Shown: in pieces, positions 3,314-22,147 of the stretch | Numbering within the stretch: the first letter of the stretch is position 1 | Layout of the letters: each line of letters begins with the position of its first letter | From: Plasmodium relictum | Taxonomy: Eukaryota > Apicomplexa > Aconoidasida > Haemosporida > Plasmodiidae | Assembly: GCF_900005765.1 (NCBI RefSeq) | Contig: NW_021628839.1 | Span: 1-22,147, forward strand | DNA: 22,147 bases | Direction: 5' to 3' | The notes under the pieces: generated by a model | What the model was told of the DNA's origin: nothing | The model's input: only the letters and a program-made list of their open reading frames with translations | The model's database searches: none | Program-made: the position numbers and the translations under genes

Positions 3314-3374
3314 GATTTATTAATAGGCTCTTTAATGACTCTGTCAGAGTATTAAATAAACAGATTAATAAAGA
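3314..3374. repeat. 60-bp palindromic element, copy 1
   Basis: This is the cleanest copy of an imperfect palindrome found at least eight times in the window. The core arms are TTTAAT-G-ACTCTG and CAGAGT-ATTAAA, fully complementary except for one unpaired G, and outer arms pair ATTTATTAAT with ATTAATAAA. The sequence after it (GAGCATGTATAA) is shared with the other direct copies, but the following repeat body is missing. The tail of an inverted unit begins at about 3425 instead. Confidence 0.85.
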
Positions 3375-3424
3375 GCATGTATAATTCAATATACTGATTT
3401 TTAGTGTATTGGTTAAAAAAAAAA

Positions 3425-4058
3425 TGTTATTTACCTTTTGTAATATAATATTATCTTACTAGTTAGGAAAATATAAGTTAACCATGCACTAACACTAGTT
3501 AAAAAAAAATATATATATAGCTATATTTTTTTTTATTTATTTTTTTTTTATATATCTTAGTAATTTAAAAGCAAAAAAAATTTATATATGCATCTTTTTT
3601 TTTAATTTTATATATATTTGTAATTTAAAAAAAAAAACTTAATTTTTTTTTTTTTGGCTGCTCATGTCTTTGAGTTAAGATTATTAATTTTTAATTAAAA
3701 TATAAAAATTGTGTTAAAGTATAATGCTTGTATTATAATCGATTTGTTTATTGTGAAATAACATTTGATAACTTAGGGTTTATTTTTTTTACTTGTTATA
3801 ACTTAATTATTTGTTTATGTTTCTAAATTAAAAAAAATATTCTTATTCTTTGTAAATAAATGCACATTTTTCAAAATAAATATATGTTTGCTAAGAAAAA
3901 TAGAATTGCTTCAAATTAAATGTTATATCTGATAAATATTTCTATGCGTAATATAAGAATAAGTATATACATGAAAAATATGTATGTTTAGTTACGCTTA
4001 CTCTTTATTAGTTTGTTCAGTATTCTAACAAAGTCACTGAACAGCTAATTAATATATC
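3425..4058 (-). repeat. Palindrome-headed subtelomeric repeat unit, inverted
   Basis: This copy of the large repeat is in reverse orientation. Its palindromic head is at 4002-4058 and its tail at 3425-3510 (ACCTTTTGTAATATAAT, then GTTAGGAAAATA and ACCATGCACTAAC). It matches the reverse complement of the tail seen at 7610-7655. The body at 3655-3960 (CTTTGAGTTAAGATTATTA to TTCTTTGTAAATAAA to CAAATTAAATGTTATAT) is closely similar to 20765-21030. In the palindrome the arms read GTTCAGT and ACTGAAC, different from other copies yet still complementary. Confidence 0.8.
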
Positions 4059-4092
4059 AACTGAATAAACTTAGTTTCACTAGTGTTATTAT

Positions 4093-4260
4093 TTATCTAA
4101 GTTAATACAGCTTATATGGCATAAGATGATAAATCAGTATAAATAGTACTTAGTTTTCCTAATTTGGGAAATGATAAATAATCTATTTCATCCATTTTAT
4201 TTTTAATTTGCTAAGGTACTTGTTAATGTTCTTCTGGTTAACAAAATTATGTGCATTAAC
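4093..4260 (-). pseudogene. Ty3/Gypsy RNase H domain, N-terminal remnant
   Basis: In minus-strand translation a stretch reads FPKLGKLSTIYTDLSSYAI, then a stop (TAA at 4112-4114), then AVLT. This fits the family pattern P-x-L-x(4)-F-x-L-x-T-D-A-S-x(2)-G-I-G-A-V-L-x-Q. The catalytic Asp of the T-D pair is kept (4133-4138). Just upstream, in another frame, NFVNQKNINKYLSKLK resembles the W-x-E-x(4)-F-x(2)-LK segment that precedes RNase H in gypsy elements. The domain breaks off before the palindrome at 4002-4058, so the remaining catalytic residues are absent. Confidence 0.7.
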
Positions 4261-4860
4261 TTTTTGTATATAATAACTACCTAAAATATAAATAAAGAAA
4301 TTTAGCCTCGCACACAATGTTATCAAAGCCAATCACTCATTTTTAGATAAATAATCAATAGCCGAGAAAAAGAAAAAAATTCTTTAATTTATTTTTTTTA
4401 ACTTTTTTGGTTTTGTAAATAAAGATATTTTAATTTTTATTTTTATTTTTTTGGGAAAGATTAAATTTTTTTTTGGAAGAAAAATATATAATATATATTT
4501 TTAAAAAAGAAAATAAACGAATTTAAAAATCAAAAGCTTTTGAGGATGCATAAACTTAAGTGAAAGGCATAATCTTTAATCAAAGATATTATGTATGTAT
4601 ATTTATATAAGGTGTTTATTATATGTTAGTTATATGTTATTTATTAAAGACTTATAAATTATTAAATAATTAAACAGTTTATCATCTTAATTTAAATTCA
4701 CTAAAAAAAAAAAGCATAAACCAATAAAAATATTATTCACATTGCAAAAATTCTCTTTATTAAATTGTTCATTCAATACCTTAGCGAAGTCATTAAATGA
4801 GCAATTAATAAATCATCTTCATTTCATTCAAACTTTTTTAGTCAACAAAAAATATAATTT
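4261..4860. other. Palindrome plus unrelated DNA separating RT and RNase H remnants
   Basis: In an intact element the RT thumb (ending near 4870) and the RNase H start (near 4260) would be separated by only a few tens of codons. Here roughly 550 bp of AT-rich DNA intervenes, with a full inverted palindromic element (4754-4814) at its right edge. The body does not obviously match the other repeat units. It may be a diverged unit or a deletion/insertion scar. Confidence 0.5.
4754..4814 (-). repeat. 60-bp palindromic element, inverted copy
   Basis: It reads TCTTTATTAAATTG...GCAATTAATAAATC. The arm segments CATTCAAT and ATTAAATG pair apart from one position, with a third variant of the arm sequence. 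It lies directly after the reverse transcriptase thumb remnant. Confidence 0.8.
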
Positions 4861-4869
4861 AAAGTCTCA

Positions 4870-5672
4870 ATTTGAAAATTTTCTTCTATAATTTCTTTAA
4901 TAATTAGAAGCTCCTAAAAACGATCTTAATAATTTCTTTGATTTAAATCGTTCTGCTTTAATAATTGTTTCTATTATATATTAAGAAGGTCTTATTCTTT
5001 TTTTATCTATTACTTTCCCCAAATATGTAATAGAAGTTTTATACAACTCACACTTTTCGATATCTATTCTAATTTATTATCTATAAGCAATTTATAAACT
5101 CTTTTAAAACACTATGATGCTCAATTATTGTTTTTGTTAAAATGATGATGCCATCAATATACACAACATAATTTTCTTGAATTAATTTCATAGAAATATT
5201 TTCCATTATTCCTTGAAAATACATAGGACTTGTTTTCAATTCAAACGGTAGCGCGTTAAATACAAATGTATCACTTATGAGAATTACAAACAAATGTATA
5301 TTGCTTACTATTCTCTTCTAATGCAATATTCCAAAAGCCATTTTTGAGATATATTTTCGAAAACCATTTAGTACTATGAAAATTTTGAAATATATGTTTC
5401 ATATGGGGAACAACATGTAAATCATCTAGTATAAATTTATTTAGATAACAATAATCTATAGTGGTTATTCATTGTCCACCATTCTTTCGTATCATTACAA
5501 TAGGTAAAGTCCACTTTTCATTAACAACATTACTTATAGAATTCAATTGTAGCATTTCATCTATTTTCTGATGTAATATTTTGAATATTTCTCCACTTAA
5601 TGCTTTAGGACTATAACAACGAGTTTTTTCTCTTACCTTAATAGAAACTTTACATTTATCGTTAGGTTTCAT
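4870..5672 (-). pseudogene. Ty3/Gypsy reverse transcriptase remnant, frameshifted and catalytically dead
   Basis: Successive minus-strand pieces cover the domain. The fingers are at 5469-5672, with IDEMLQLNSISNV and LPIVMIRKNGGQ matching the family's E-L-L-x(2)-G-x-I and P-x-V-x-V-x-KK-G-G segment, then a TGA. Next come TIDYCYLNK (for V-D-Y-R-x-LN) and FSKIYLKNGFWNIALEE, where the first catalytic Asp of F-S-x-x-D-L is Tyr (5349-5351). The palm is at 5081-5293, with FNALPFELKTSP-x-YFQGIM and YIDGIIIL at 5150-5161, where the second Asp of Y-x-D-D is Gly. After a frameshift, KCELYKTSITYLGKVI and, further on, LLRSFLGASNY match the connection/thumb. Two lost Asp residues plus stops exclude activity. 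A homologous, shorter piece lies at 19136-19400. Confidence 0.88.
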
Positions 5673-5684
5673 ATTTTTATTCTC

Positions 5685-6060
5685 TTAAAGTTTAATACTC
5701 TTTTCTAATAAAGTTTTCACTTTATCTTTATTCTTCTGATCATTAAAATTATATTTGTCAATAAAATTCTGTATGACTTCTTTATTTAATTTTTGTACTT
5801 TTTCTTCTGTATCTTCGATATTAACTTCTATAACATAAACATTCTTTTTATCCTCATCATGAATAGAATATAATAATCCTTTTAGTAACGTGACACTTAG
5901 CAAAATAAGAGGTTTATTTTTTTCAATTATTACAAACTTTATTTTAATTGTTCTACCATTAACATTTTTAATACAATCATTTTAGATTTTCTTGATTTAT
6001 TACTAATAAATAATAATGTTATTACAAATGGTGGAACTGTTAAATCAGGTTCTATGTTTT
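5685..6060 (-). pseudogene. Retroelement protease end and protease-RT linker remnant
   Basis: An uninterrupted reading from 5903 to 5685 (about 72 residues, Lys/Glu/Asn-rich, ending EKSIKL before TAA) leads into the RT start after a few codons. The piece at 19205-19400 is its homologue. Upstream, the reading GRTIKIKFVIIEKNKPLILL resembles the C-terminal part of a retropepsin. Further upstream N-S-S-T-I at about 6026-6041 could be the remains of the active-site D-S/T-G-x-x motif, with stops after it. The protease assignment comes from position between zinc knuckle and RT and from weak pattern similarity; the linker is well supported by the second copy. Confidence 0.55.
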
Positions 6061-6523
6061 ATTCTTTTGTGGAATAAATCAATATCGTATTTACCTTTTC
6101 TCTCGAGTCTAGTAAAACATCTATTCATTTCTATTAACTTTCACTTATCTTTTTTCTATATATCTTGCAATTTTGTCTTCACAAAATTTAATTATATTAA
6201 CGGTAAATATATCTCCTTCAGACTTTTTTGAATAATCATTATTTTAAGACCATTTTTCTTATTTATCTTTTTCATTTATCTTGTGAACTTTATTTTTTTT
6301 TCTAGTAAGATCATTATTACTTTCTTTATCTTGTTTTTCTTTATATTTCTCCTTTGTTCTTTCCTCTTGTTTTGTGATTTATTCCATCTCCTTATCAAGG
6401 TATCTTTGCATTTGATGAATTCTTTGTGGATTAGTTTCATTTTTGAACATTTTAACATGAATATCTTAAATTTTTTATTATTCCTTTGATTCCATCTTCG
6501 TCATCTCTCAACAATTTATTTTT

Positions 6524-6565
6524 TCATACCTTTGCTAAATGACTTATTATATTACAATTTCTACA
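6524..6565 (-). pseudogene. Gag CCHC zinc knuckle with last Cys replaced by a stop
   Basis: Minus-strand translation gives C-R-N-C-N-I-I-S-H-L-A-K-V followed by TGA. The spacing is exactly C-x2-C-x4-H-x4-[C], so the final Cys (TGT or TGC) has become TGA by one base. A second, more damaged Cys-rich stretch (KCYCRGQISR, stop, KKDC) lies just upstream in the element at about 6585-6640 and may be a first knuckle. The position between the gag body and pol is the normal one for nucleocapsid. Confidence 0.7.
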
Positions 6566-6682
6566 TCTTTCCTCATTATATGTACAATCTTTCTTTTAAC
6601 GACTTATTTGTCCACGACAATAACATTTAATAATTGCTTAATTTTTTTAACAAATGTCTTACTACTATTCCTATCATCTATA

Positions 6683-7085
6683 TTATATACTTCTGTTTTC
6701 ATTTCTCCATATCCATTTCTTTTTATTAATTCTATTTCCCTTAGTTGATCCATAACTCTTTAAATTTTTAATACTTGTCATATTTATGAAAACTTTATCT
6801 TTAATATCAATAGGAATAATATGTTTTTTGAAATTTCTCCAAAGGTTGGATTTTGGTAAGCTACTACATTTCTTCATGCAAAGACATCTTTTAGCATAAA
6901 TTGTGCAGTCATTAATAAATGTATCTATAACTTCAAGTACATTTTCTTTCTCTTTTAAATTAATTATCTTTGCTAATATTTTATATATTTCTGTTTTATC
7001 CCTATACATAGATCTTACTAAAACAGCTCATAATTGTAATATGTTAGTTATTTCTTCGTTAATTGAAAAATTACATAAATTATTT
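6683..7085 (-). pseudogene. Retroelement gag remnant, C-terminal capsid part
   Basis: An open reading runs from 7009 to 6683 (108 codons). Upstream, after one TGA, about 18 more codons (LCNFSINEEITNIL) continue in the same frame. The protein is Lys/Ile/Asn-rich, contains a Cys-rich patch (CTIYAKRCLCMKKC), and precedes the zinc knuckle by about 40 codons. It is not recognisable alone; I call it gag from its place between the capsid-like piece at 7669-7845 and the CCHC knuckle. Confidence 0.6.
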
Positions 7086-7099
7086 TAAAATTTTATTAT

Positions 7100-7668
7100 G
7101 GCATTAAATCAACAATTTAATAGAGATCATGTGCAACTAAATATACAGATTTCATATATATATATATATACTTTATGACATATATAGTAGCATTTTATAA
7201 TATATAATATTTAATTTGAATTAAACAATTCTATATTGCTTAAGAGGCATATGTTTACTTTTATAAATGTATTTTTATTTACAAGAATAAGTACATTTTT
7301 TTTTTTAAAATTACACACAAAATTTATAACAAATAGCAAAAATTAAACTATAAGTTATTCAAGGTTATTTCAAAATATACAAATCGAGTACAACATAAAC
7401 ATTATATTGCTTATACATTAATTCTTATCATTCAATTAAAAAAATTAGTTATATTTCAACTCAAAATGTTAAAAATTCAGAAAAAAAAAATTAAATTATT
7501 TTTTTTTTTAAATTACAAAGATGTATTAAAATAAAATAAACAAAAAAAATATAGCTATATATATAATTTAATTTTTTTTTATATAACTATCGTTAGTGTA
7601 CGGCTAACTATTATTTTCCTAACTAATAATCTAATTTTATATTACAAAAGGATAATAATATTCTTTTA
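7100..7668 (+). repeat. Palindrome-headed repeat unit inside gag, direct
   Basis: It begins with the right half of the palindrome (GCATTAAATC...AATAGAGATCATG, 7100-7126) and continues ACTAAATATAC. The shared body follows: AATATTTAATTTGAATTAA, TTTTTATTTACAAGAATAA, TTATAACAAATAGCAAAA, TTCAAGGTTATTTCAAAATA, AATTACAAAGATGTAT. The shared tail is CTAACTATTATTTTCC then TTATATTACAAAAGGATAAT. The gag reading breaks off on both sides of it, so it sits inside the retroelement. Confidence 0.8.
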
Positions 7669-7845
7669 TTAACCATAGATAGAGCTAACTATGAACTCCA
7701 GAATCACACGTGCTTCTTCTCTGGATAATTCCAGTATTTTTATTTTGTTCTAAAACACTGTTAACCATTCAAAATATACTTTTAATAATGTATCATTAAA
7801 TTATGGTAATCCAGGTCTTTCGATTCTTTTAATTTCATTATCACT
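7669..7845 (-). pseudogene. Retroelement gag remnant, N-terminal capsid-like part
   Basis: The minus-strand reading contains RPGLP, a stop, FNDTLLKVYFEWLTVF, a stop, then NKIKILELSREEARVILEFI and IVSS-IYG before TAA at 7669-7671. The pattern P-x-F-x-G/D-x(4)-Y-x-W-L-x-x-F followed by an L-S-x-E-E-A helix is typical of Ty3/Gypsy gag capsid. Two internal stops lie at positions where a sense codon is one base away. The rest of gag resumes beyond the repeat insertion, at 7085. Confidence 0.65.
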
Positions 7846-7990
7846 CTTTGAAAAAATAAAATTAATCAAATAATACAATATTAACAAATATGTTCAAATT
7901 AAGATTCTCTATTTATTTTTCCATTTTTATGACTTGCTAATCAAAGGGGTTTTGTTTGAGTAGACTTCAAATTTCCTACCGTTGTCAATT
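7846..7990. other. Probable gag 5' end or leader, unresolved
   Basis: It lies between the capsid-like remnant and the next palindromic head. It is less AT-biased than the surroundings and holds a minus-strand ATG near 7925 followed quickly by stops. It may be the decayed gag start or untranslated leader. I find no primer-binding site that I can defend. Confidence 0.35.
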
Positions 7991-8634
7991 GATTTATTAG
8001 TTATCTGCTCAATGGCTTTCCTAGAGTATTGAACAAACAAATTAATAAAAAGCATTTATAACTAAATATACTGATTTTAATATGTATATGTCTATTTATA
8101 CTATATATAGAAAATGCTTATATATAAGTATCATTTAATTTGAAGAAATTATATATAGTATAAAACAAACATCTATTCACTTTGAGAAATGTATAATTAT
8201 TTATAAAGAATAAGTATATTCTTTTAATTTAGAAACGCACCTAAATAATTAGGTTATAACAAATAACCAAATTAAATTTTAAGTTATGCATTGTTATTTC
8301 ATAATATACAAACTGAATATCACACAAACATTATACTTTTTATTCATTGAAAGAAATAAAAAGTTTTCTTATATTTACTTTTCATACATTATTTTTTATA
8401 TTTTAAGTAAAAATTAACTCTTTATTTATAATTTAACTAACAAAAAAAATAAAAAATTAAACCTTTTTCTTTTTTTAATTACAAAATATATATAAAGAAT
8501 AAAATAAACATAAAAAAAAATATAGCTATATATATATTTTTTTAACTAGAGTCTTTGCATGATTGACTCATATTTTTTTTAACTATTAAGCTAACTTTAT
8601 ATGTTATAGAAGGTTAATAACATCTTTTATTAAT
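7991..8634 (+). repeat. Palindrome-headed repeat unit, direct
   Basis: The head palindrome at 7991-8051 has arms GCTCAAT and ATTGAAC around CTTTCCTAGAG. It is followed by AGCATTTATAACTAAATATACTG, then TTATAACAAATAACCAAA, TTATTTCATAATATACAAAC, and the tail GCTAACTTTATATGTTATAGAAGGTTAATAA split over 8590-8622. The right half of a further palindrome (GAATACTAAACAAACAAATAAAGAA) follows at 8635-8660. Confidence 0.8.
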
Positions 8635-9528
8635 CGAATACTAAACAAACAAATAAAGAATACTTGGAGATGTTTCTACTGATTTTATTTATTGCAAAAA
8701 TATATGTATGCTACTAATACGTAAATTTTATATATACGATTTACATAATTAAACAATTAATGCATGGGAAATATTTATGTATATTAATAAAAAAATATTC
8801 GTTTTTTCTTTTTTTATTAAAAACTAAAACCTTTATTAAAATTGTCGATAATGTAAAAATTACTTAAATAAAATAAAACATATAAATTTAAATCATAGTT
8901 ATTAACAGTATTTCGAAAATAATTGAAAATTGAATAATAATAAAAATATAATTCTTTTTTTTTTCTCTCTAATTTCTCATTTAATTTTTTTATTTTTTTT
9001 TATTTAATTGGATTTGACAACAAAAATTTTACCAAATTATTTCCAAAAACTATTATATATTTTTTCATGAAGAAAAAAAAAATATAAATTTTTGTCTTTA
9101 AAATCAATAGAAATAAACTTAAAGCAATATACATGCAGGAAAAATTATCATATGTTTTCTTAAACTAGCAAACGTATGTCTAACTCGCTATTTTCCTTAT
9201 AGAAAAAAATATTATTATATAAAAGGATAATAATATCTATTAATAATCACTAATAAATAAATAATTAAGAGAAATAAAAAAACACATTAAAGGTGAAGAC
9301 AATAACAAAAAAAATATAATCTATATATCAAATAGAGCACATTCATGCATGCATACAATTTAATTTAAATAGTTATGTATATACAAGATTGAATAAACAT
9401 ATATTAAACGATCCAATAGTTTAAATTATCATTTAAAATAAATTTTCTCAATAAAATTATTGCATGAAAATACTTGTGAGATAGTAGAATCTTATAAATT
9501 TTTTAATTTTTTAATTACTTTAACATGT
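8635..9528. repeat. Diverged repeat remnants
   Basis: It starts with a half palindrome (8635-8660) and ends with a recognisable unit tail at 9165-9240 (AACTAGCAAACGTATGTCTAAC, TATTTTCC, ATATAAAAGGATAATAATATC). The body between is AT-rich and too diverged to align by eye with certainty. No coding sequence is seen. Confidence 0.5.
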
Positions 9529-9585
9529 GATTTATTGACTATTTGGATATTTTTACAGTATTTTAAATAGTCATATTAATAAAGA
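9529..9585. repeat. 60-bp palindromic element, diverged direct copy
   Basis: GATTTATTGACTATTTGGAT...AATAGTCATATTAATAAAGA. The ends match the other copies and GACTATTT pairs with AAATAGTC, giving a new complementary arm pair. The centre has diverged from the usual CTTTGCTAGAG. Confidence 0.65.
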
Positions 9586-10287
9586 GTATATAAAGAAATA
9601 TATGCTTATTTTACTTATAACAAAGCTAATTACTATAAGTATATATTCCTTATGTTATTATCTAAATAGAATAAAATAAAATTAATTTTTTATATATTTT
9701 GCTTTATCTTAATCACGTTTTTAGTAGATTCTATTACAAAATATTTTAACTTATAAATTTGAATCACTCACGTAAAAAAAAATTATAAAAAAAAAAAATT
9801 AATATACATAATTATAATTGTTATATCATGCATATCTTTTTGCAATATATATTTTAAGATATGCTTTTTTTTATACCAATCGTTATATAGAAAATCGTGC
9901 CATATGTATCTTTATATATATATCTTTATACACACACATCTCTTAACTTACATGCATTAACAATTTTCTTAAGTAATTTTTTTTATTATTTTAAAATTTC
10001 AAATAAATATATAAAATATTTTACTGGTCAATGTGCTGCACTCTATTACTTTGTACTATATTATGTAACTTAAAGTATTTTGTACTTGAATGAATCTTTT
10101 TTAAACTGTTATATAATAACATAAAACTCTTATTTCAAAATAAAAAATAATACTTTAAAATATTTCATAAAATATTAATAAGATGATATAAATAAATTTT
10201 TCTTTTTATTAAAAATAATAACAAAAGAAAAAAAAATTAAATTATTAGTATTTCCTATACTCTCCTTAATGTAATTAATTTTTATTC
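9586..10287. other. Gene-free AT-rich region
   Basis: About 700 bp of AT-rich DNA with short TA and CA runs (ATATATATCTTTATACACACACA near 9915-9940). I see no coding sequence or repeat copy. Confidence 0.5.
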
Positions 10288-10440
10288 TTAATCTAAATAT
10301 ATATTATCAGCATGCTTTTTTGTTTTCATTTTTCTAGATACATTCAATTTTATATCTTCTTTAAAAATAATAAATTCATATCCTTTTAATGAACATTTTT
10401 TGTATCTAGCATTTTTCTTAGTTTTCCTTTTTTTAATTGA
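10288..10440 (-). pseudogene. Possible coding remnant or terminal exon, unknown
   Basis: A minus-strand reading of about 50 codons ends in TAA at 10288-10290, with clearly less AT-rich codons than the flanks. Its C-terminus is Lys-rich (RYKKCSLKGYEFIIFKEDIK then RKMKTKKHADNIYLD). An in-frame TGA precedes the first codon. Immediately upstream another frame is open (GCAAATTTT... reading FDQLKKGKLRKMLDTKNVH) and overlaps it, which would fit one frameshifted protein. No credible T-rich 3' splice site lies at the start. It could be the last exon of a decayed gene, or chance. Confidence 0.3.
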
Positions 10441-11275
10441 TCAAAAAAAAAATTTGCATCTTGTAATATTATTAAAAATAACTCATAATGAAAATTAAAT
10501 ATATTTAAAATGAAAGATACAAATTATTAAATCTATATTTAAAAAAAAAAAAATTATTAATATAAATATTAATTAAACATCCAAATAATTAAAAATTGAA
10601 AATAAATATAAAATAAAAAAAAATTAAATATTATAAATTTATTAATAGATTTATCTTTTTAATTTCTTTATAAATATTTGTTTAATGTAATATATTTATT
10701 AATATTCCTATTTAATTTAAATAATAAATTTATTTTTTTTTTTACTAATTTGTTAAAAAGGAAACAAATTGAAATAACTAAATAATATTATCATAAAAAT
10801 TATAAATTAATTTTCCTTTTTTTAATAGCAGTTGTATTTATATATAAATAATTTTTTTAAATATTAAAATATAGATAAAAAAAAATAGAGAATCTTATGA
10901 TTTCAGAAATAATTTTTCCTATATAGTTGAAAATTAAAATTTTTCTTTTTATTAGTTTTTAAATAAAAAAAAAATTAAATTTTAAAAGAACGATAATATC
11001 TATAGTTAATAATATAAATTTTTAATCATTTCTTTTAGTTATTCTAGCTTGTAAATCTATAAGAATTCTTTTAAGCATAATTTCAATAAAAACATTTTTT
11101 TTTATCACATATCCTATTTTTTTAATTATATAGTGTAATAATTTTTATTTTTACTTTTTTTATTAATACAAATAAAAATTTCATATAATAACATCTGTAG
11201 TGTTAATTATATTGAAATTCAAAGATAAATTACTTTTTAAGGCAATTTGTTTTGTTTTTTAAGAATATATTGAAG
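10441..11275. other. Gene-free AT-rich region upstream of the PHIST-like gene
   Basis: About 830 bp of extremely AT-rich DNA with long A and T tracts, likely containing the promoter and 5' untranslated region of the gene at 11276. No sequence motif stands out that I could name. Confidence 0.5.
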
Positions 11276-12486
11276 ATGGGATTTAGTAACACACTAAATT
11301 TATTTTTAAAAAGAAGATTTTTAGCCTCCAATAATACAAATGTAAAAAATGAATTTGTGTCTTCATTAAATAGGAAGGGAAAAAATTTTCAAAAACGAAA
11401 TTTCTCAAATTTTGCATTTTCTAAACTTTTTATTTATTTTTGTCTTTCCCTATTTTATCTCTTGTTACTAGTAAGATAAAATTCAAATTTATAAGTGTAT
11501 GTACTTTTTTTAATCTTTAAGATATTCAATTAAATTAAAATAATTTATCTATAAATATTTTTTAAATACTTATATTTAAAATGCTATTATAGAATATATG
11601 TATATCTAAAAGAAATATCATTTCAGACTTACAATTAAGTAACGGATATTCCAGGAAACTAACTGAATGTATTTGTAAAAAAAAGAAAAAGAAAAGTGTA
11701 CAACTTAGATCAAGTTGTAGCAATTCTGTGTGTTTAGAAGAAAATGGCCAAGGCGAAAAAAGTGATGATGAAGTAAATGGCCAAAGTAAAGAAGGAGAAG
11801 AAGAAGAGGAAGAGGAAGTAAATAGCCAAAGTAAAGAAGAAGAGGAAGAGGAGGAAGAAGAAGTAAATAGTCAAAGTAAAAAAGAAGAGGAAGAGGAAGT
11901 AAATAGCCAAAGTAAAAAAGAAGAGGAAAAGGAAGTAAATAGCCAAAGTAAAGAAGAGGAAGATGAAGTAAATGGCCAAAGTAAAGAAGGGGAAGATGAC
12001 ATAGACACTGAATCGGGTAAAGTAAACTCACAAAAAAAAAACAATAAGGAAAAAAATTCAGAGCTATTTGAACAGTTAAGTGAAGAAGAAATAGATGAAA
12101 TGCTTGATGGATTAGATGATATTCCAAATATACAAGATGTATACATATTATGGTGGCAACACCGAGGTAGCCAAAGAAATTATTTTCTTGATTTAATGTC
12201 AGAGTTATCGGATTTATATAATTCCCTTGTAGATATGTATAATTATAATAAAAAAAATTTAGAGAAGGAATGGAAAAAATGGTATTTAGGATTATTAAAG
12301 GATTTAACAGATAAGGAAACTGAAGATAATAAAACATTTTATTCTTTAACTAATCAAGGAGGATTGACACGTGAAGGACTTGGAAGTTTTATAAATGAAA
12401 ATAAAGAAGAATGGAAGGATCATAAAGAAAATACGAGAAATAAGTGGAAAGACATTATTACTACGGATTTTATGAAGAAGAAATAA
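11276..12486 (+). CDS. PHIST/PRESAN-like exported protein with acidic repeats, two exons
   Basis: Exon 1 is 11276-11470 (65 codons), the intron 11471-11592 (GTAAGA...TATTATAG, 122 nt) and exon 2 11593-12486 including TAA; 362 residues in all. The start is the first in-frame ATG. Residues 47-65 are a recessed hydrophobic segment (KLFIYFCLSLFYLLLL) serving as ER entry signal. PEXEL RKLTE follows at 86-90 in exon 2, the classical two-exon exported-protein layout. Lys-rich residues follow (about 94-99), then six acidic repeats EVN-S/G-QSK-E/K-E(n) at about 125-201. The C-terminal domain (about 222-350) begins LSEEEIDEML and holds Trp-rich segments (VYILWWQHRG, EWKKWYLGLL, EEWKDH, NKWKDI), which match the PHIST/PRESAN pattern of Plasmodium proteins that bind the host red-cell skeleton. 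The TTTCAG at 11621-11626 looks a stronger acceptor but would break the frame after this donor. Export is inferred, not shown. Confidence 0.85.
11770..12000 (+). repeat. In-gene acidic tandem repeat, six units
   Basis: Units begin GAAGTAAATRGYCAAAGTAAA at 11770, 11815, 11860, 11896, 11932 and 11965, with lengths 45, 45, 36, 36, 33 and 36 nt, all multiples of three. Length differs by the number of GAA/GAG codons. It encodes EVN-S/G-QSK followed by a Glu run. The outer two units carry Gly (GGC) and the inner four Ser, so unit duplication was internal. Confidence 0.93.
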
Positions 12487-15400
12487 TTGTACAACAAATT
12501 TTGCTTAATCTTTTAGTTGTTCTACTAATATAAAATAGAATAAATTAGTTAAATTTCAAAAATATATCATATTTAACATAATAAAATATGATTTAGCCAT
12601 TGATAAACATCATGTTAATCTTTTTCTATAATAATGAGGTAGTACTAAGGTGTGCACAAAAGAAAATTATGTATTATCTATATTATTTATATATGTTCAA
12701 ATATATGATAGATAATACTGTCTTTTATAAAACTAGGATACATAAATTAAATATATTTTCTTTTACGAGTATTTTTTTCTTTTGATTTTAACTCATGACG
12801 ATGAAAACCAAAAAAAAAAAATACTCGTAAAAGAAAATATATTTTTTTATTCTATTAATGGATCAGTTTCAAGCTTAGTAATAGAAATGTTGTGTAATAT
12901 GAAAAATTAGAGTTTTAAATAACATTTTTATTTATAAAATTTTATTATTTTTGTTAATTTAAGGTATAGTATTTTTTTTTTTACTTTAAAATATTTAGTA
13001 TGTACTAGTATATAACTAAATTAAGAAAATGTTTAATTTTTTTTTTTTTTGAGTTGTCAAATTTTTAAGTAAATTTAATGATATGTAATTCTGATAATAT
13101 ATGGAAGAACATCATGAAAAAATTAAGAATGTAGATATATATTTTAATGAAAACATATAGACAAAAAAAAAGTTATTTTCTTTCATCTAAATCTTAAAAG
13201 ACAAAAATTAAAAGGAAAAATAATTATTTTCTATAAATTGTTTCGATAAATAAAGATAAAAACAAAGAATAATAGAAAGTTAAAGTTTGATATTTATATA
13301 TGCAATATTACATAATGTAAAGAATATTTTAATTATATAAAAATATATGAGCGAAAACCTTGTATTTATAATGAAAATTTTTATTTCGTCTCTCTCTTTT
13401 GTATGATATAATTGAAATATGGTATCATATCTATTTTTTTTTCAAAATACTATATAAAAGAAATTCATAAATAATTTATTGCAATTTTAAAAACATGTTA
13501 ATAAGCATGTGACGTAAATTAGGGAATTTCATACATATTTAAAAATAGTATTTTAATTCTTTTTATATGATAATAACAAATAAATATTTTAATAATTTTT
13601 TTTATATTAGGCATATTTTTTTACTAATTATTTTTAATAAATGAATGTATGTTTGAAAATTTTAATCTATATTTATTGGCATGTAGGGCAATTTTAGAAT
13701 TGTATACAATAACCCATCTTGTTTTTTAAAGATATTCCTTAACAAAAATTTATTTTTTATTATCATAAATCTTACTAAAACTAATATGTTTATTACAATG
13801 TGTTAAGATAAAAAGACTTTCTTGTAGTATGCTAATACATTCAATGGAAATTTTTATTCCATTTTGTGGAATTTAAATAAATTAGATTTATGTATAATAT
13901 TTATAAACATATCCATAAATTTTACAAAAAAGAATGTTCTATTAATAAAGGCAGTATTTTTTTTTTATGAAGGTTCTTATTTCCAGATTAAAAAAAAATT
14001 AATGCATTTTAACATAATGGAATATGTTCGAAGTAAATAAATACACAATATTGTATAACTTAATCATATATGATATAAAAAGATGTAGAAGTTTTATAAT
14101 ATGCACATTTTAATTGTATATATGTATTAACAATTATAACATGTATATAATGTTAGTTATAAATGATGCGATTAATTATTAGAAAAAGATGTATTATGCA
14201 ATACAAATATTCACTTTATTATAAAATTAAAACCCATAATTAATAATATGATATATAAAAAAAAATTTTTTTATTATTTTTTTCATTTAAATATATAATG
14301 AATATATTTTTTATCTATATTTAATATATTTATTTATAATTTTTTTTTTTTTTTTGTTATACTAAAATAAGAATAAATTAATTTTTTTAACACAAATTTA
14401 CTGTCTAATATATGAATTTAAAAAATTTATATTACACATAACTAATTTTTACTATATATAAAAATAGGAATAATGTACTTTTTAAATAATTATAAAATTT
14501 ATATCTTAATTTATACAATATTATTTTATAATATTAGTGTAATTTTTTTAGCGAAAAATATAATATGATAATAACTTAACGTAGTAGCAAAATTTGCTAT
14601 GCTTATTATAATCAATCATGTTAATAGAAAATTATTTTTAAAACTAATGTAATAACGGAAACTAGTATAATCATTACTTCTATAACGAATACTCTATATA
14701 TTATGCTATCGACTAATGATGTAAATTATAGCATGCACTTTCTTTTTTTTCATAAAGTTATCATTTTATTAACAAAAAATACCATAATTTCAAAATTCTA
14801 CATTTATTTATTTATCTATTTATTTTTGCATTAATATTTCTTAACCTCTTCAAAAAAAAAAAAAATTCAGTCAATTATGCCTATTATAAGAGTTTTAACA
14901 TTTTAATTCTTATAAATTTCTATTTAAATTTGTCAAAAAATAAGTTTTGTAGTAAAATTTATATAAAAATAAATACGTAAATAAATAATCAAATTTACTT
15001 TGTGCGTCCGATGAATGATTTTGTAAAAAAATTAAAGGTATATATAAAAACGTATTTTTTTTTTTATTATTTTACATTATGGAATTGTTATAATACAATT
15101 AGAAATACCATAAAGATATCTTTTTAGTACATTTGTTTAAAATATCATAAATTTAACAATATAAAGAATACTATATCTAATAAATTTTAAAGGAATTATG
15201 TAACTTATTTATGTAATAATATAATTTATTCTATTTTCCATTTTTTCTTTCCTGATTTATTACTTTCTGTAAATGAAAGAAAACATCCTTACTGAACCTT
15301 GTTGTTAATAAAACAAGTAACTATTATAATTTTTTTTTTTTTAGTTAGATATGACGAAAATGCAATTCTTCTATCTAGAAATTTATATTTATTAATATAT

Positions 15401-18001
15401 TTTCATAATTAGTTTATGTTCTATAAAAAAAAAATTTTTTTCAATGGGTAAATGCATCTAAATGTATATATAAAAATATAAAACAAATAAAATAAATTGT
15501 TTTTTCCAAAAATATATTTATAAAAATAATAAATTACTCTAAAACAATTTTTCAAATTATATTAAAAAAGATAAAACATGTATTAAACACTTTTATTTTA
15601 TATATACTAAAATAATTTATAATTTAAAAAAAAATTTTATTTTTTAAGAATATATATTAATTAGTTAATTATATTATATTCCTCTCACTTTCGATTTTAT
15701 TTAAAAAGTTAATTTTTAATATTTATCTCTATTTTGATATTTTTTTTTTTGTCATTATTAGCATTATATGATTTAATAATTTTCATTATTAATATTACAA
15801 TTAACTTTACTGTTATTTTAAGTCTTTCTCTATTCTAGAGAAAAATATTTTTTTTTCCTTTTAATTAATTCTTGTAAATGATTTCATATAGCATTAATGT
15901 TTTCATAATATCTATATTTTTTCTAATAAACTAATAAAAAAAAAAGTGAAAATAAATTAAATAAGAAATGATAAAGGAAAGAGCATACGAATTTAAAAAA
16001 AAATATATAAATGAAAAATATTTACTTTTTATTTTAATAAAAATTTTAAAGTACCAAAAACAAATATATTTAAAAAGAAGTATTTTAACACAAATAGTTA
16101 TTGTAATAAAAGATAATGTAACTTTTTTTTATTAATTTCTATATTAAAATATTTAATTTTTTTTAAATCTTTCTTTTTTTTTCTTATACAATAAATTCAC
16201 GTGACAAAAAATAGAAAAAAAACGGTTTATAAAAATTGAGCACATGCCACATATCGTAAAATAAGATGTTATTTATATTTGTGTAGGATACATATAAAAT
16301 GAAAATGATATAATTTTATAATATAGGTTTATCCATTAAATGAATAAGTAATAAAAAAAGAAAAATCATTATAATTAATTAGAAATGTATTACTAATTAT
16401 ACAATAATGCTATGCTACTATATCTATTTCTTTACATTTTCTTCTTTCTAGTAAATATATCTGGATATTTTAAAAAAAAAAATAGTTTAAATCACAATTA
16501 ATAGAACTTAATTTTTGAAGTTATGATATTAAAGAATGTATATCCTTCTTATGAGATTATACAATGTTTCTGTTAATTTTTTAAAGTTTTACAATAAAAT
16601 ATTTTATTTTTCCGGAATGTTTATTTTGAAATTTATTTTTATGAAAATTTCAGCATTACAAATAAAATAAAAAATTAAAATTTTATATTAAAAAATTAAC
16701 TATTTGATGTATTATATCTTAAATTTATAGCATTTGGCATGTGCTAAAGTTTTTTTTGTATCCATTATATTCTATTAATAAAAAAAAACCTGCAGTGAAA
16801 AAATTAATTGGAATAAATAATTTGTATATTTTCGTAATAAAAATACAAATAAATGAAATAACTAAATAATAACAATTAATTACATTATAAAAGGGTGAAA
16901 ACAACAATTATAGAACCAACATAATAAAAAAATTAAAAATGTATATATATATAATATATAAAATTTTAAGTAGAAAACAGCAATCAATAATATGTACGTT
17001 TTTTTAATATCAATTTTTTTTTTTATTTTAAAAATTGTTTAAATTTTTTCATGTATTTTCAGAAGTGTCATGATGAATTACATAAATTAATATGAAGTAC
17101 TTTCATGCAAAAAAAAAAATTTTTAATAATAAAATGAAATATTTACTAAATGATATAAAAGGTAAATTCATATATCAATTTTTTTTTTGTATTTCTTCAG
17201 GTTTAATTTTTAAGAAAGATATGAGTAGAAGTATATGAAATAATAAAAATTTTAATAAATAATATAATTTAATAAATATATTTATATTTACTACTAATAA
17301 TATTAAAAATACATTAAAAAAATTGTAATTATATAAAAAATATAGAATTAAATATGATGTAAAATATGAAGAAATTTTTTTCTTTTTCTATAAAAATTCA
17401 TTCATTTTTTAAATTTAAGAATGCATTAATTATTTATGCAAAATAATATATTATTATAAATTTGTGTAAATTAATGTTTTTATCTTTCAAGCTTATATAT
17501 ATCTAATTATTTATTTGTCAAAGCGATTTTTAAATTAAATTAAAATTATATTTTAAGTAAAACTTTACTTATTATTGATTCATAATAATTTTTACATTAT
17601 TTTTAATCAAGTGTTTATGTTTCTACAAATATTTATTCAAAAATAATATATATATTAATTAATCTTATTTTTTTTTTTATTGTTTATTTTAACTTCCCAT
17701 AAAAACAGTTATAAAAAAAAATACAGAAACTTTTAGTATTTAATATTTAAAGATGAACCATTAACTTTTTTGTTGGATTTAATTTTTTAATATGAATTTA
17801 CAAATATTTTACTAAATTTTAAACTAATGTAAATATAGAATGTTCTTTTTTATTATTTCCTTTTTTTTTATACAATTATATATATATATTCGTTGTAATT
17901 TTTTTTTTATATAAAAAATAGTTTACATTATTTTTACTTGAATATAACTACAGCACAAGTAATTATGTAAATAAACAAATTAAGAGCATCTTTTGTTTAA
18001 T
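12487..18001. other. Long gene-free AT-rich region (5.5 kb)
   Basis: No coding sequence I would defend on either strand. Short open stretches (for example 12600-12785 plus and 16725-16907 minus) have the composition of noncoding DNA. The one strong structure is the 30-bp perfect inverted repeat at 12749-12844. I see no palindrome-headed repeat, no retroelement motif and no tRNA or rRNA. Slightly less AT-rich patches at 13670-13740, 15240-15310 and 16195-16260 are unexplained. Confidence 0.6.
12749..12844. repeat. Perfect 30-bp inverted repeat with 36-nt loop
   Basis: The left arm 12749-12778 contains TTTTCTTTTACGAGTATTTT and the right arm 12815-12844 contains AAAATACTCGTAAAAGAAAA; all 30 positions pair. 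The loop at 12779-12814 holds ACTCATGACGATGAAAACC and ends in an A run. The non-AT-repetitive core TACTCGTAAAAG makes chance unlikely. It lies about 260 bp after the stop codon of the PHIST-like gene, so it may form a hairpin in that gene's 3' untranslated region, or be a foldback element. Confidence 0.9.
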
Positions 18002-18370
18002 ATGAGTATTCAACAACAAAATATATCTTCTTTAAATTCAACAGAACTTGCAAGTAATTCTTCAGTGAATATAACATCAACTTTATATGTTAATAATCGT
18101 ATAAATATAATATATCTTCCTGTATTATTATTCGCATATATTTCTCTTATACTTATGTTTCTTTTAATAGCCAAACACTTCCAAGTAAAGTCACATTTAA
18201 AATGTATATTTATATTATTTTTAATTACATATATAACTTAAAATAATATTAAAATATAGGGACATCATGGAAGATATTGGCGTAATCATGTGCAAATATT
18301 AAGTGCAGATTCAGGTTTTTTCGATGACTTTGACGAGAATGAACAAGAAGCAAATTTAGATCAAGAATAA
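18002..18370 (+). CDS. Small single-pass membrane protein, unknown function, two exons
   Basis: Exon 1 is 18002-18184 (61 codons), the intron 18185-18259 (GTAAAG...AAATATAG, 75 nt, phase 0) and exon 2 18260-18370 including TAA; 97 residues in all. The start is the only in-frame ATG near the front. Residues 1-35 are Ser/Asn/Thr-rich with several N-x-S/T sequons (NISS, NSTE, NSSV, NITS). Residues 39-58 are a strongly hydrophobic membrane segment (IIYLPVLLFAYISLILMFLL), followed by AKHFQ and, across the splice, GHHGRYWRNH. The tail is acidic (SGFFDDFDENEQE). The uneven charge suggests an outside N-terminus and a cytosolic acidic tail. No PEXEL is seen. Both exons have coding-like composition and a clean splice, so it is probably real, but I do not recognise the family. 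Confidence 0.7.
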
Positions 18371-18519
18371 ATATAGACATAAATTCAAGGAAAATATTTA
18401 TTCTCTTTTTTCTGAAATTTTATGTTCATAAATAATAAATTAAAAAAAAGTTTTATAATAATCTATTATTTTGATACTTAGTAAATAAATGATACTATTA
18501 GTCCTTTATAAAATAATAG

Positions 18520-19102
18520 TTGTTAATAGGGGAAATATTGAGTTTGCCATGCATTCGCTAGTTTTGAAAAAAAAATAAAATAAGTATGAACATTTTTTTT
18601 TTTTTGTCCATTTATTGTTTCTGTTAAACTTATTTTTATTCATTTAATAAAAAAAAAGAGATATTTTTTTTTTATGAAAGATTAAATAGCAACCTTTTTG
18701 TTACAAGAATATAAGCAATAAAAAAATTAAATTGGAAATTTAAAAGAAAAGCAAAAAGAATCTTTTTTTTACTAATATTTAATTTTTAAGTTCCTTTTTT
18801 AAGAGACTGTTTATCGGTATATTTTAAATTAATTTGTTTGTTGTAATTATTTATTTTACATAATCAATAATTTTAATGAGGACTTATATTTCTTATCAAA
18901 ATAAAGGTATATATTTATTAAAGTAAATAAATATGTCTAAAACAATAATTTCTCAGTTATTTAAATTATATGCATAAATTAATTTTTTTAATAGCGTAAA
19001 TATATTTTTCCAATGAATAAAATCAGTACAAAAAACTCTACGTCTTCTTTACTAACTTTTTTGTTCGATGCTCTAGAAAAGTCATTGAATGGTTAATAAA
19101 AA
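18520..19102 (-). repeat. Palindrome-headed repeat unit, inverted
   Basis: The tail at 18520-18580 (AATAGGGGAAATATTG, CCATGCATTCGCTAG, then a long A run) matches the inverted unit tail at 3458-3510. The head palindrome is at 19046-19102 (TCTTTACTAACTTTT...TTCGATG CTCTAG AAAAGTCATTGAATGG). The body is diverged. The unit ends about 35 bp before the second retroelement remnant. Confidence 0.7.
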
Positions 19103-19135
19103 AATATATATTACTGATAATATTTCTTAACTTAA

Positions 19136-19399
19136 TGGCCTATAGATATAATGACAATGTTTTCTTTGCACTTTAATAAAAACTTTATATTTATCTTTAG
19201 TTTCCATATTTTTATTTTTCCAAAGTTTAGAATTTTCTCCTAATTCATTTTTTAACTTATCATTATCTTTTTGATCAATTAAATAATAATTGTCAATGAA
19301 ATTTTAAATAACTTCCTTGTTTTGTTTTTCCATCTTTTCTTTTATTCCCCAGGTTTAATTTTCATGATATATATATGATTATCATAAGCCTCTTTAATT
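19136..19399 (-). pseudogene. Second Ty3/Gypsy remnant: protease-RT linker and RT start
   Basis: The minus-strand reading from 19207 gives METKDKYKVFIKVQRKH, homologous to MKPNDKCKVSIKVREKT at 5672 in the first copy. Upstream, DQKDNDKLKNE-x(6)-KLWKNKN aligns with DQKNKDKVKTL-x(4)-KLxENKN. Where the first copy has a TAA stop this copy has TGG (Trp), so that stop is a late mutation of copy 1. Copy 2 ends at the start of the RT fingers; no palm motif follows. It is bounded by palindrome sequence on both sides (19046-19102 and 19400-19430). Confidence 0.8.
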
Positions 19400-19430
19400 G
19401 ATTTATTAATTGGATGCTTGGTTAATGAAT
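19400..19430. repeat. Left half of the palindromic element
   Basis: GATTTATTAATTGGATGCTTGGTTAATGAAT matches the left arm of the full palindromes (GATTTATTAATTGCCCGTTTAATGACT). The right arm is missing. It forms the other border of the second retroelement remnant. Confidence 0.6.
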
Positions 19431-19689
19431 GAATATGTTAACCATTTTCAAAATAAAATGCAATTGTGTGCAAGTAGAATAAAAAATAGATAGTTGGACT
19501 AGCTACTTTATTACAAAAAAAATTTAGTAAATTTTTTCTAACCAAAAATACCTCGTCTTAGTAAATACATAAATGAAAAAAAAAATATCAATTTTTTTTT
19601 TTAAATCGGTTTTGAATAGATTTCAATATCATATAATATTATATAACTGAAATATATAATATGAAGATAGAAGAAATTTATAGATAATT

Positions 19690-20175
19690 GATTTATTAAT
19701 TTAATGTTCAATAACTTTGCTAGAGCATTAAAAAAACAAATTAATAAAGAGCATGTATAATTAAATATACTTATTCATATATTATACATAGAAATATTTA
19801 TCATATATGTCAGTTAATTTGAACTAAGATATTCTATATTGCATAACAAACATGTATTTGATTTGATAAATGTATACTTATTTATAAAGAATAAATATAT
19901 CCTTCTAATTTAAAAACGCACACAAGTACTTAAGCTATAACAAATAAAAAAATTTAATTTTTATTTATTCACTGTTATTACGAAATATGCAAATAGAATA
20001 AAACGGAAACGTTATGCTTTTTATTAATTTAAATGAAATAAAAAGTTTTTTTATTGTCATTTTTCATATATTAATCTTTATATAAGTAAGAATTAATTCT
20101 TCATTTATCATTTAACCAACAAAAAAAAAGAAAATTAAAATCTTTTTTTTTTTTAATAACGGCAAATATATAAAT
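19690..20175 (+). repeat. Palindrome-headed repeat unit, direct
   Basis: The head is at 19690-19750 (GATTTATTAATTTAATG...TTGCTAGAGC...AATTAATAAAGA), followed by GCATGTATAATTAAATATAC and the shared body (TATTTATAAAGAATAA, TATAACAAATAAAAAAATT, ACTGTTATTACGAAATATGCAAAT). It is cut by the half palindrome of the next unit at 20176 and lacks the usual tail. Confidence 0.8.
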
Positions 20176-20715
20176 GCTTTATTAATTTGTTTGTTCAATA
20201 TTCTAGCAACTTATTTTTATTATATATATGATGGTTTTTTATGATACATAATATTTAATTTGAATTAAATTATGCTGCATTGTTTAATAGACATGTTAAA
20301 CTGTTATAAATGAGTTTTTATTTACAAAAAATTAATATACTCTTTTAATTAAAAAACACACAAATAAAATTTATAACAAATAACAAAAGTTAAAATTCTA
20401 ATTTATTCAATGTTATTTCAATATATTTACATCGAATACAACATAAATGTTATACTTTTTATATATGTCTATTTTTTTGTGTAAATAAAAACTTATTCTC
20501 TTTTTAATTTGAACAAACGTCTATTGACAAAAAAAAAAAATAATTTTAATTTTTTTTTTTTTAATTACAAAGATGCATATAAATAAAATAAACAAAAAAA
20601 AAAAAATAACTCCATATATATATACACATATTTTTTTTTTTTTAAACTAGCATCGGCATATAGCTGATCTCTATTTTCCAGACCGGTAGCTCATTTTATT
20701 TTACAAAAGGTTAAT
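20176..20715 (+). repeat. Palindrome-headed repeat unit with half head, direct
   Basis: It starts with GCTTTATTAATTTGTTTGTTCAATATTCTAGCAAC, half of the palindrome. The body follows (ATAATATTTAATTTGAATTAA, TATAACAAATAACAAAAG, AATTACAAAGATGCATATAA), then the tail ACTAGCATCGGCATATAGC, CTATTTTCCAGACCGG, TTTTACAAAAGGTTAATAA. It is the copy most like 7100-7668. Confidence 0.8.
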
Positions 20716-20719
20716 AAAA

Positions 20720-21030
20720 TAAATAAAAAAAAAAATAATAAATTTTTTTTTTCATGGGAAGTTGGCGTTTTTGAGTTAAAAAAATAATTAATTTTTACTT
20801 ATATAAAAAATTATTATATGAAAAAGTATAATGTTTGTTTTATATTTAATTTATATATTTTGAAATAACATTGAATAATTTGGTTTAATTTTTGTTATTT
20901 TTTATAAATTTAAATGTGTTTTTAATTAAAAGAATATACTTATTCTTTGTAAATAAAAATATATTTATAAAAGTAAACATATATTTGTTAAGCAATACAG
21001 AATTATTTAATTCAAATTAAATATTATATA
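20720..21030 (-). repeat. Repeat body, inverted, joined tail to tail
   Basis: GTTTTTGAGTTAAAAAAATAATTAATTTTT, then GAAATAACATTGAATAATTTGG, TACTTATTCTTTGTAAATAAA, TAAACATATATTTGTTAAGCAATA and TTCAAATTAAATATTATATATCTGA follow the order of the inverted unit at 3655-3960. It abuts the tail of the direct unit on its left and shares the palindrome at 21034-21094 with the direct unit on its right, so head-to-head and tail-to-tail junctions both occur here. Confidence 0.75.
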
Positions 21031-21033
21031 TCT

Positions 21034-21578
21034 GATTTATTGATTGCCCGTTTAATGACTTTGCTAGAGTATTAAACAAACAAGTTAATAAAGAGCATTG
21101 TATAACTAAATATACGTTTATATATATATTAGTTTTTTTTTTTAATTATTATAAATGAGTTTTTATTTACAAAGAATTACTTATTTTTTTAATTAAAAAC
21201 ATACAGATAAACTATAATAACTAATAAAGTCAAAATTTTATTATATTCAATGTTATTTCAAAATATGCATTGAATAATACATAAACATTTCTTTTATCTC
21301 TTAAGTTTTTATAAGAAAACATTAATTCTTTTAATTTTTAAAACACTAAAAAAAATTAAAACATAACATGACATAACAAAAGAATAATTTCGACAACCAA
21401 AAAAAAAATATTTAATTTTTTTTTTTTTTTAATTACAAAGATGCATATAAATAAAAATAAACAAACAAACAAAAAATTAACTTTATTTTTTTATTTTTTT
21501 TTTTTTTTATTATTATTAAGTAGCATCATTGCATGGCTAACTTGTACGCACACAAGTAGTAAACTAGCTTAGTGTACT
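21034..21578 (+). repeat. Palindrome-headed repeat unit, direct, tandem copy 1
   Basis: The head is at 21034-21094 (arms GTTTAAT and ATTAAAC around GACTTTGCTAGAGT), and the next head starts 548 bp later. The body carries TTTTTATTTACAAAGAATTA, TTCAATGTTATTTCAAAATA, TACATAAACATT-like segments, a long T run, AATTACAAAGATGCATATAA and a short tail (GTAGCATCATTGCATGGCTAAC). Confidence 0.85.
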
Positions 21579-21581
21579 ACT

Positions 21582-22147
21582 GATTTATTAATTGCCCGTT
21601 TAATGACTTTGCTAGAGTATTAAACAAACAAATTAATAAAGAGCATGTATAACTAAGTATACGTTTATGTATATATATTCGTTTTTATTATATATATATA
21701 TACTGTTTTCTTATGATGCATAATATTTAATCGAAGTTAAATTTTACTGCAACTTTTAATAATCCTATTAACAGTTATAAATGAGTTTTTATTTACAAAG
21801 AATTAATATCTTCTTTTAATTAAAAACATACAAATAATTTATAGCAATTTATTAAGTCAAAATTTTATGATATTCAATGTTATTTCAAAAATATACATTG
21901 AATAATACATAAATATTTCTCTTATCTCTTAAGTTTTTAATAAGTTAACATTTCTTTCTTTTAATTTTTATTTACACTAAAAATTAAAACATAACATAAC
22001 ATTTCATAACATTCATTCATAAAACTCTTCCAAAAAAAAAAAATATTAATTTTTTTTTTTTTTTTTAATTACAAAGATGTATATATATATAAATAAACAA
22101 ACAAAAAAAAAATAACTTTATTTTTTTTTTTTTTTTTTTTTTTTAAA
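21582..22147 (+). repeat. Palindrome-headed repeat unit, direct, tandem copy 2, runs off window
   Basis: The head at 21582-21642 is almost identical to that at 21034-21094 and the body follows the same order (ATAAATGAGTTTTTATTTAC, TTCAATGTTATTTCAAAAAT, AATTACAAAGATGTATATAT). The window ends inside the T-rich part before the tail. Together with the previous unit this is a short tandem array that probably continues. Confidence 0.85.

Follow-up and report, generated by a model that had tools for sequence, protein, structure and literature searches.

The window analysed here is a stretch of 22,147 nucleotides from Plasmodium relictum (contig NW_021628839.1) and is a Plasmodium subtelomere. It carries telomere-like CCCTGAA/CCCTAAA repeats at positions 1-250, has a G+C content of 18.4% and contains dispersed copies of a palindrome of about 60 bp. 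An initial annotation had reported nine full palindromes, all of which we confirmed at their sites, three of them (4002, 4754 and 19046) in minus orientation; what it overlooked is that the palindrome forms one end of a retrotransposon long terminal repeat (LTR). It occupies the terminal ~62 bp of LTRs belonging to Ty3/Gypsy-type retrotransposons, an identity that is near certain for two of the three lineages described below (A and B) and likely for the third (C). The unit begins one base before the reported start, with TG (CG at 3313), and the copy placed at 9529 spans 9528-9585. Of the half copies, those at 7090-7138 and 20172-20209 were recovered by a profile search, whereas those at ~8637 and ~19399 were seen by eye only. 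A one-base bulge, described earlier as fixed, is by eye retained in most A-type copies, while B and C differ there.

The first hairpin belongs to an A-type LTR fragment on the plus strand (3313-3414, LTR positions 2-102). It is followed on the minus strand by a nearly full-length A-type LTR (3410-4059, reference LTR positions 1-669, hairpin 4002-4059), for which a target duplication was looked for and not found. A broken Ty3/Gypsy-type pol relic extends on the minus strand from 4061 to 6237, in blocks with 49-74% amino acid identity to the C266 pol frame and with an RVT_1 match at 5084-5281. Inside this relic sits a solo LTR of 581 bp (4235-4815, minus strand, hairpin 4754-4815), flanked by the 5-bp duplication GAAGA (TCTTC on the plus strand, at 4230-4234 and 4816-4820); the pol residues resume across it, with residues 396-473 at 5067-4834 and 480-537 at 4234-4061. 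On the 5' side of the relic lies an A-type LTR with a truncated hairpin (7087-7675, plus strand, LTR positions 23-669). Next comes a near full-length A-type LTR (7990-8633, plus strand, hairpin 7990-8051), after which the half hairpin at ~8637 belongs to another copy. The hairpin at 9528-9585 (plus strand) is of C type, with inner arms GACTATTT / AAATAGTC, and is called an LTR end by resemblance. Towards the end of the contig, an A-type hairpin piece (19046-19105, minus strand) adjoins a pol fragment with 58% amino acid identity to the C266 frame (19106-19342, minus strand). Beyond it follow an A-type LTR (19689-20160, plus strand, positions 1-487, hairpin 19689-19750), a half hairpin (20169-20209, minus strand, LTR positions 29-71), an A-type LTR without its hairpin (20211-20721, plus strand, positions 85-629) and an A-type LTR piece (20711-21032, minus strand, positions 103-449). 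The last two A-type LTRs lie on the plus strand at 21033-21580 (hairpin 21033-21094) and 21581-22147 (hairpin 21581-21642), the latter cut by the contig end.

The identity of the palindrome was established across the genome (22,602,028 bases, 514 contigs). With 21570-21660 as the query, 1563 candidates came up at first look; 40 of them were scored, and at least 48 matches were obtained. Copy numbers given here are lower bounds. Among 61 strong copies, homology stops sharply on the left at the T of TGATTTATTAATT (TG before ATTTATTAATT), where 574 of 1811 pairwise alignments end exactly, and on the right it continues, in many pairs for hundreds of bases. The TG at the left border suggests an LTR end. 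Exact 5-bp target duplications were found for 22 LTRs among 156 copies examined (lineages mixed; A and B). These LTRs, 456-669 bp in length, end in ATTAACCA, after which the five bases preceding TG recur without a change, and the far end of the A-type LTR reads TTTTATTAACCA in many copies. Thus, A and B have the TG...CA borders and short target duplication of a Ty3/Gypsy LTR element. The lineage C copies, including the one at 9528, are likely LTR ends by resemblance. A free-standing palindrome of the miniature inverted-repeat transposable element type was rejected, since the homology border is one-sided and the duplications bound the LTR and not the palindrome.

The subtelomeres of this genome are rich in Ty3/Gypsy-type elements, and RVT_1 and the integrase zinc-binding domain were matched at 90 and 73 places, respectively (E <= 0.001). 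A near-complete element, C6 (517381-522908), has LTRs at 517381-517892 and 522458-522908 with TATTA on both outer sides. Both LTRs begin with the palindrome in plus orientation. On the minus strand of C6, RVT_1 lies at 520026-520514 and the integrase domain at 519023-519199, placing reverse transcriptase upstream of integrase as in Ty3/Gypsy elements. As the enzymes are encoded on the minus strand and the palindrome starts the LTRs on the plus strand, the palindrome is the sense 3' end of the LTR. In a second example, C321, an integrase domain at 1146-1322 on the minus strand stands in the expected orientation next to an LTR of A type, whose hairpin is at 57 and whose far end lies near 711. 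In the 5' LTR of C6 the palindrome stands directly before a putative primer-binding site, a tRNA-like motif. This motif, ~28 nt beside the B LTR (L086:530-560 and three other places), resembles the 3' part of a tRNA. At three or more of the four places a B hairpin lies five bases off (40 of 233 candidates scored). A 24-mer of the motif, searched with up to two mismatches, has four genomic sites, each on a contig that also carries a reverse transcriptase or integrase match; the same search found it in no tRNA gene standing by itself.

LTR retrotransposons of avian Plasmodium were described in 2018 and called the first found in the genus (PMC5880244). As presented there, they resemble the elements studied here in their Ty3/Gypsy domain order and in being mostly subtelomeric fragments, and include a near-complete P. 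relictum copy in the core of chromosome 6, taken to be the C6 copy. The LTRs of that copy are given as 253 and 257 bp (PMC5880244), compared with 512 and 451 bp as delimited here by the target duplication. The string 'palindrom' has no occurrence in the main text of that paper, and its section 8 contains no description of a terminal hairpin. We found no description of the present hairpin in the literature searched, most subscription papers lying outside it.

The hairpins fall into three element lineages with different inner arms that pair. The outer arms TTTATTAA/TTAATAAA are common to all three, with decay in single copies. The inner arms of B, the C6 type, are GGATATTCA/TGAATATCC (40 copies scored of 233 candidates). 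Lineage C adds a second inner stem to its inner arms and has 35 matches genome-wide, including the one at 9528 (35 of 35 candidates). Among the first 25 alignment rows listed, A and B LTRs keep a common register across their first 66 bp, at ~74% (as far as ~115 bp in two of these rows); whatever else matches is short and lies out of register. The hairpin is therefore the portion of the LTR in which A and B have stayed most alike. A second inverted repeat of 16 nt adjoins the first, GTATAACTAAATATAC in A (window 21647-21662) and GTAGAGAAATCTCTAC in C (copies L087-L120), at the same place and of the same length in both and with different letters; within C it has weak support, as 33 of 500 shuffles reach its score.

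In the window, the copy at 21581-21642 folds with a z-score of -6.1 as sense and -4.1 as antisense RNA, none of 200 shuffles being as good, compared with a median z of +0.22 and no value below -4 in 150 control windows of 62 nt from 9700-18500. The initial annotation had also claimed paired change between the arms, and this holds for the nine window copies: the paired share of cells on the sense strand is 86.4%, compared with 83.0% after shuffling, and ten cells are changed on both sides compared with 4.6 (1 of 500 shuffles as high). Their covariation score is 0.226 compared with 0.164 (3 of 500), and six sliding controls give 0.032-0.088. As the copy at 9528 is of lineage C, part of this paired change is between lineages. 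A cross-lineage set of 16 copies (the nine window copies, two B copies and five hand-picked A variants) has 16 both-sided cells compared with 7.1 on the sense strand and 18 compared with 8.2 on the antisense strand, in each case with 0 of 500 shuffles as high. Here the score is 0.201 compared with 0.141 after shuffling and 0.076 for the best slide, and RNAalifold predicts 11 pairs, six of them with both-sided change. Within A, pairs were counted on 114 of 126 rows, 12 having been dropped as duplicates after trimming or as gapped. In these 114 distinct rows pair 21-42 covaries (TA 62, CG 27, CA 10, TG 9), and pairing exceeds the shuffles on both strands by at most 1 percentage point (0 of 500 as high). 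Sense folding is strongest in B (median z -6.8, 19 of 19 below -2), followed by A (median -2.6, 39 of the 60 copies taken) and C (median -1.3, 12 of 33), an order that may reflect the age of the lineages.

Standing copies behave differently. Among the 35 C copies, 80.7% of cells pair compared with 80.8% after shuffling, both-sided change is not raised (four pairs, a count equalled or exceeded by 500 of 500 shuffles, compared with 8.1), and RNAalifold does not predict a single pair. The covariation and shuffle check thus gives an excess in the nine-copy and 16-copy sets and none in C. Gene conversion between the arms of standing copies, one of the two causes first offered for the paired change, was accordingly rejected for C; of the other, selection on the fold, what stands is that a foldable form was kept, with both-sided change above shuffles in these two sets. 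A tree of 107 A copies, weakly resolved and used as support only, has 249 losses of Watson-Crick pairs, 77 gains and nine double changes keeping Watson-Crick pairing on its terminal branches, and 38 losses, 31 gains and two double changes on its internal branches. An excess across lineages and none among decayed C copies indicates that pairing was kept while the lineages were active; the data fit pairing that is held in active lineages and lost after insertion.

The fold also leans modestly towards the sense strand. One A copy reaches -16.1 kcal/mol as sense and -12.0 kcal/mol as antisense RNA, because positions 15-17 with 46-48 pair as G-U in the sense strand only. Over the A copies, 88.6% of cells are paired in the sense and 81.6% in the antisense strand, with 297 sense-type and 107 antisense-type wobble cells; 166 of the 297 lie in positions 15-17.

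On balance we lean, if only slightly, towards the palindrome being the sense 3' end of the LTR that forms a cis-acting RNA hairpin, kept paired in active lineages. By position it would constitute the U5 region of the LTR. The element RNA would fold into a hairpin of ~60 nt, with three bases left between it and the LTR terminus and the putative primer-binding site immediately downstream, and the hairpin may present this site or guide packaging and dimerisation. Pairing would be maintained in each active lineage while the inner arms drifted, and inserted copies would lose it base by base. That RNA rather than DNA is the selected form, and that the step served is reverse transcription or packaging, we infer. 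The U5-IR stems of retroviruses pair U5 with leader sequence beyond the primer-binding site, whereas both arms of the hairpin described here lie inside the LTR. Retroviruses and Tf1 are known to carry LTR stem-loops and U5-IR stems close to the primer-binding site (PMC3601003, PMC4600332), and the lineage B hairpin, placed by position in U5 beside a putative primer-binding site, may be of a similar kind. Such a hairpin would offer a precise RNA structure for the retrotransposons of avian Plasmodium. The LTR ends are fixed by target duplication, and dozens of relics allow paired change between active lineages to be set against decay after insertion.

Several observations weigh against this RNA hairpin. 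The assignment to U5 is by position and not by mapped transcript ends, which would be needed to place the borders of U3, R and U5, and adjacency to the primer-binding site was seen for lineage B only. The A hairpin of L039, taken for a 5' LTR, lacks the motif on the primer-binding side, and may be a separate insertion. Five of the 16 cross-lineage rows are hand-picked A variants, and the outcome is weaker when the nine copies of the window are taken by themselves. Within A, strong covariation is confined to the pair 21 with 42, and L092, a C copy, shows no folding beyond that of its shuffles (z -0.1 sense, +0.5 antisense; 200 shuffles). The sense preference is modest and rests mostly on A positions 15-17 and 19. 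B folds about equally on both strands (medians -6.8 sense and -6.1 antisense) and the 3' LTR copy of C6 folds better as antisense (z -6.5 compared with -5.0 sense), so that the lean to sense RNA remains modest.

A rather unlikely alternative is that the hairpin serves 3'-end formation or insulation, blocking transcripts that run into or out of the LTR on either side. By eye, most copies of A, B and C have an AATAAA in each arm, one per strand (TTTATT...AATAAA), and AATAAA motifs together with R-region stem-loops in LTRs have been reported (PMC3601003). However, AATAAA is frequent by chance at 18% G+C, and the sense motif, with only three bases between it and the LTR end, would direct cleavage to a point beyond the LTR.

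The hairpin could also matter as DNA, in the form of a cruciform or a cDNA-end hairpin bound by integrase or a host factor, since integrase has to bind the LTR terminus, which the outer arm constitutes. Folding as DNA supports this form for an A and a B copy (z -4.9 and -4.1), but a C copy reaches only -1.6. Moreover, the 35 decayed C copies lack paired repair, and the better pairing of the A sense strand does not favour a cruciform. A further observation for a DNA form is that the apex of the A hairpin is a hotspot of self-insertion. LTRs sit within the A-type hairpins of other LTRs, above all at positions 36-40, with the duplication AGTAT/ATACT (e.g., L079:1033, L065:1502 and L083:1502; in L079 both junctions of one insertion are visible). 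Over the whole genome, the pattern AATACTN{0,25}TGATTTATTAATT gave 33 of 60 matches without a gap and the pattern AGAGTATN{0,25}TGATTTATTAATT gave 16 of 22, compared with no match for the reversed-pattern controls. In the first list, five further matches end at hairpin position 27 and one at 15. Junctions were read for 24 of the 33 gapless matches of the first pattern and for all 16 of the second, and a hairpin arm was recognised by eye in 21 and 15 of them (36 of 40), being absent or unclear in four. Eight and four junction flank pairs are at least 95% alike and may be duplicates; the 49 are therefore pattern matches and not proven independent events.

The target preference itself was measured: of 183 distinct 9-mer flanks, 159 have a T at position -8, three bases ahead of the 5-bp duplication. 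A symmetric sequence model ranks the hotspot site 20 of 655, so that it is used more than this model predicts; with repeated 9-mers removed, the 20 insertions into A LTRs that remain include three hotspot events. The hotspot does not prove that a cruciform is targeted, as the controls show. The B hairpin is the strongest, yet its matching apex has 0 of 33 matches without a gap, two of the 33 lying elsewhere in the B hairpin and B copies being fewer than A copies, and a site outside the hairpin, at LTR position 135, has 17 of 32. Use of an outside site and disuse of the B apex suggest that sequence rather than fold drives the hotspot, which is probably an integrase sequence preference combined with nesting. 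A DNA role thus appears improbable to us. We are equally doubtful of a hairpin with two jobs, acting as a cis-acting RNA element and as an A-type landing site (36-40) that steers insertions into old copies; if true, the element would have made a refuge of its own, by which it stays clear of the genes of a compact genome. Nested LTR insertion in plants is reported to occur at non-random sites with a weak palindromic target motif, some families inserting into their own family (PMC6911290). LTRs are not commonly targeted in that account, in contrast to the single LTR position with up to 49 pattern matches found here.

Least probable of all, in our view, is that there is no selection on the fold and an inverted terminal repeat arose once and was inherited, with arm-to-arm copying during reverse transcription: the outer arms are indeed nearly identical in the three lineages, and cDNA arm copying would confine both-sided change to active lineages, as seen, but the inner arms differ in sequence, length and loop among A, B and C and are nevertheless paired at several separate positions, not along a single tract.

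Over the window as a whole, a scan with Rfam gave no match at the gathering score and a tRNA scan found none. Near the telomere, a Pfg27-like frame of 250 amino acids (713-1465, minus strand) has a weak Pfg27 domain match (E 6.8e-6). A protein with a PRESAN (PHIST) domain is encoded on the plus strand at 11728-12486 (Pfam E 5.9e-26), an acidic repeat stretch preceding the domain. By eye, a long inverted repeat (ATATTTTCTTTTACGAGTATTTTTTT and its complement) lies 3' of the PRESAN gene, at ~12749-12842, and is unlike the LTR hairpin.

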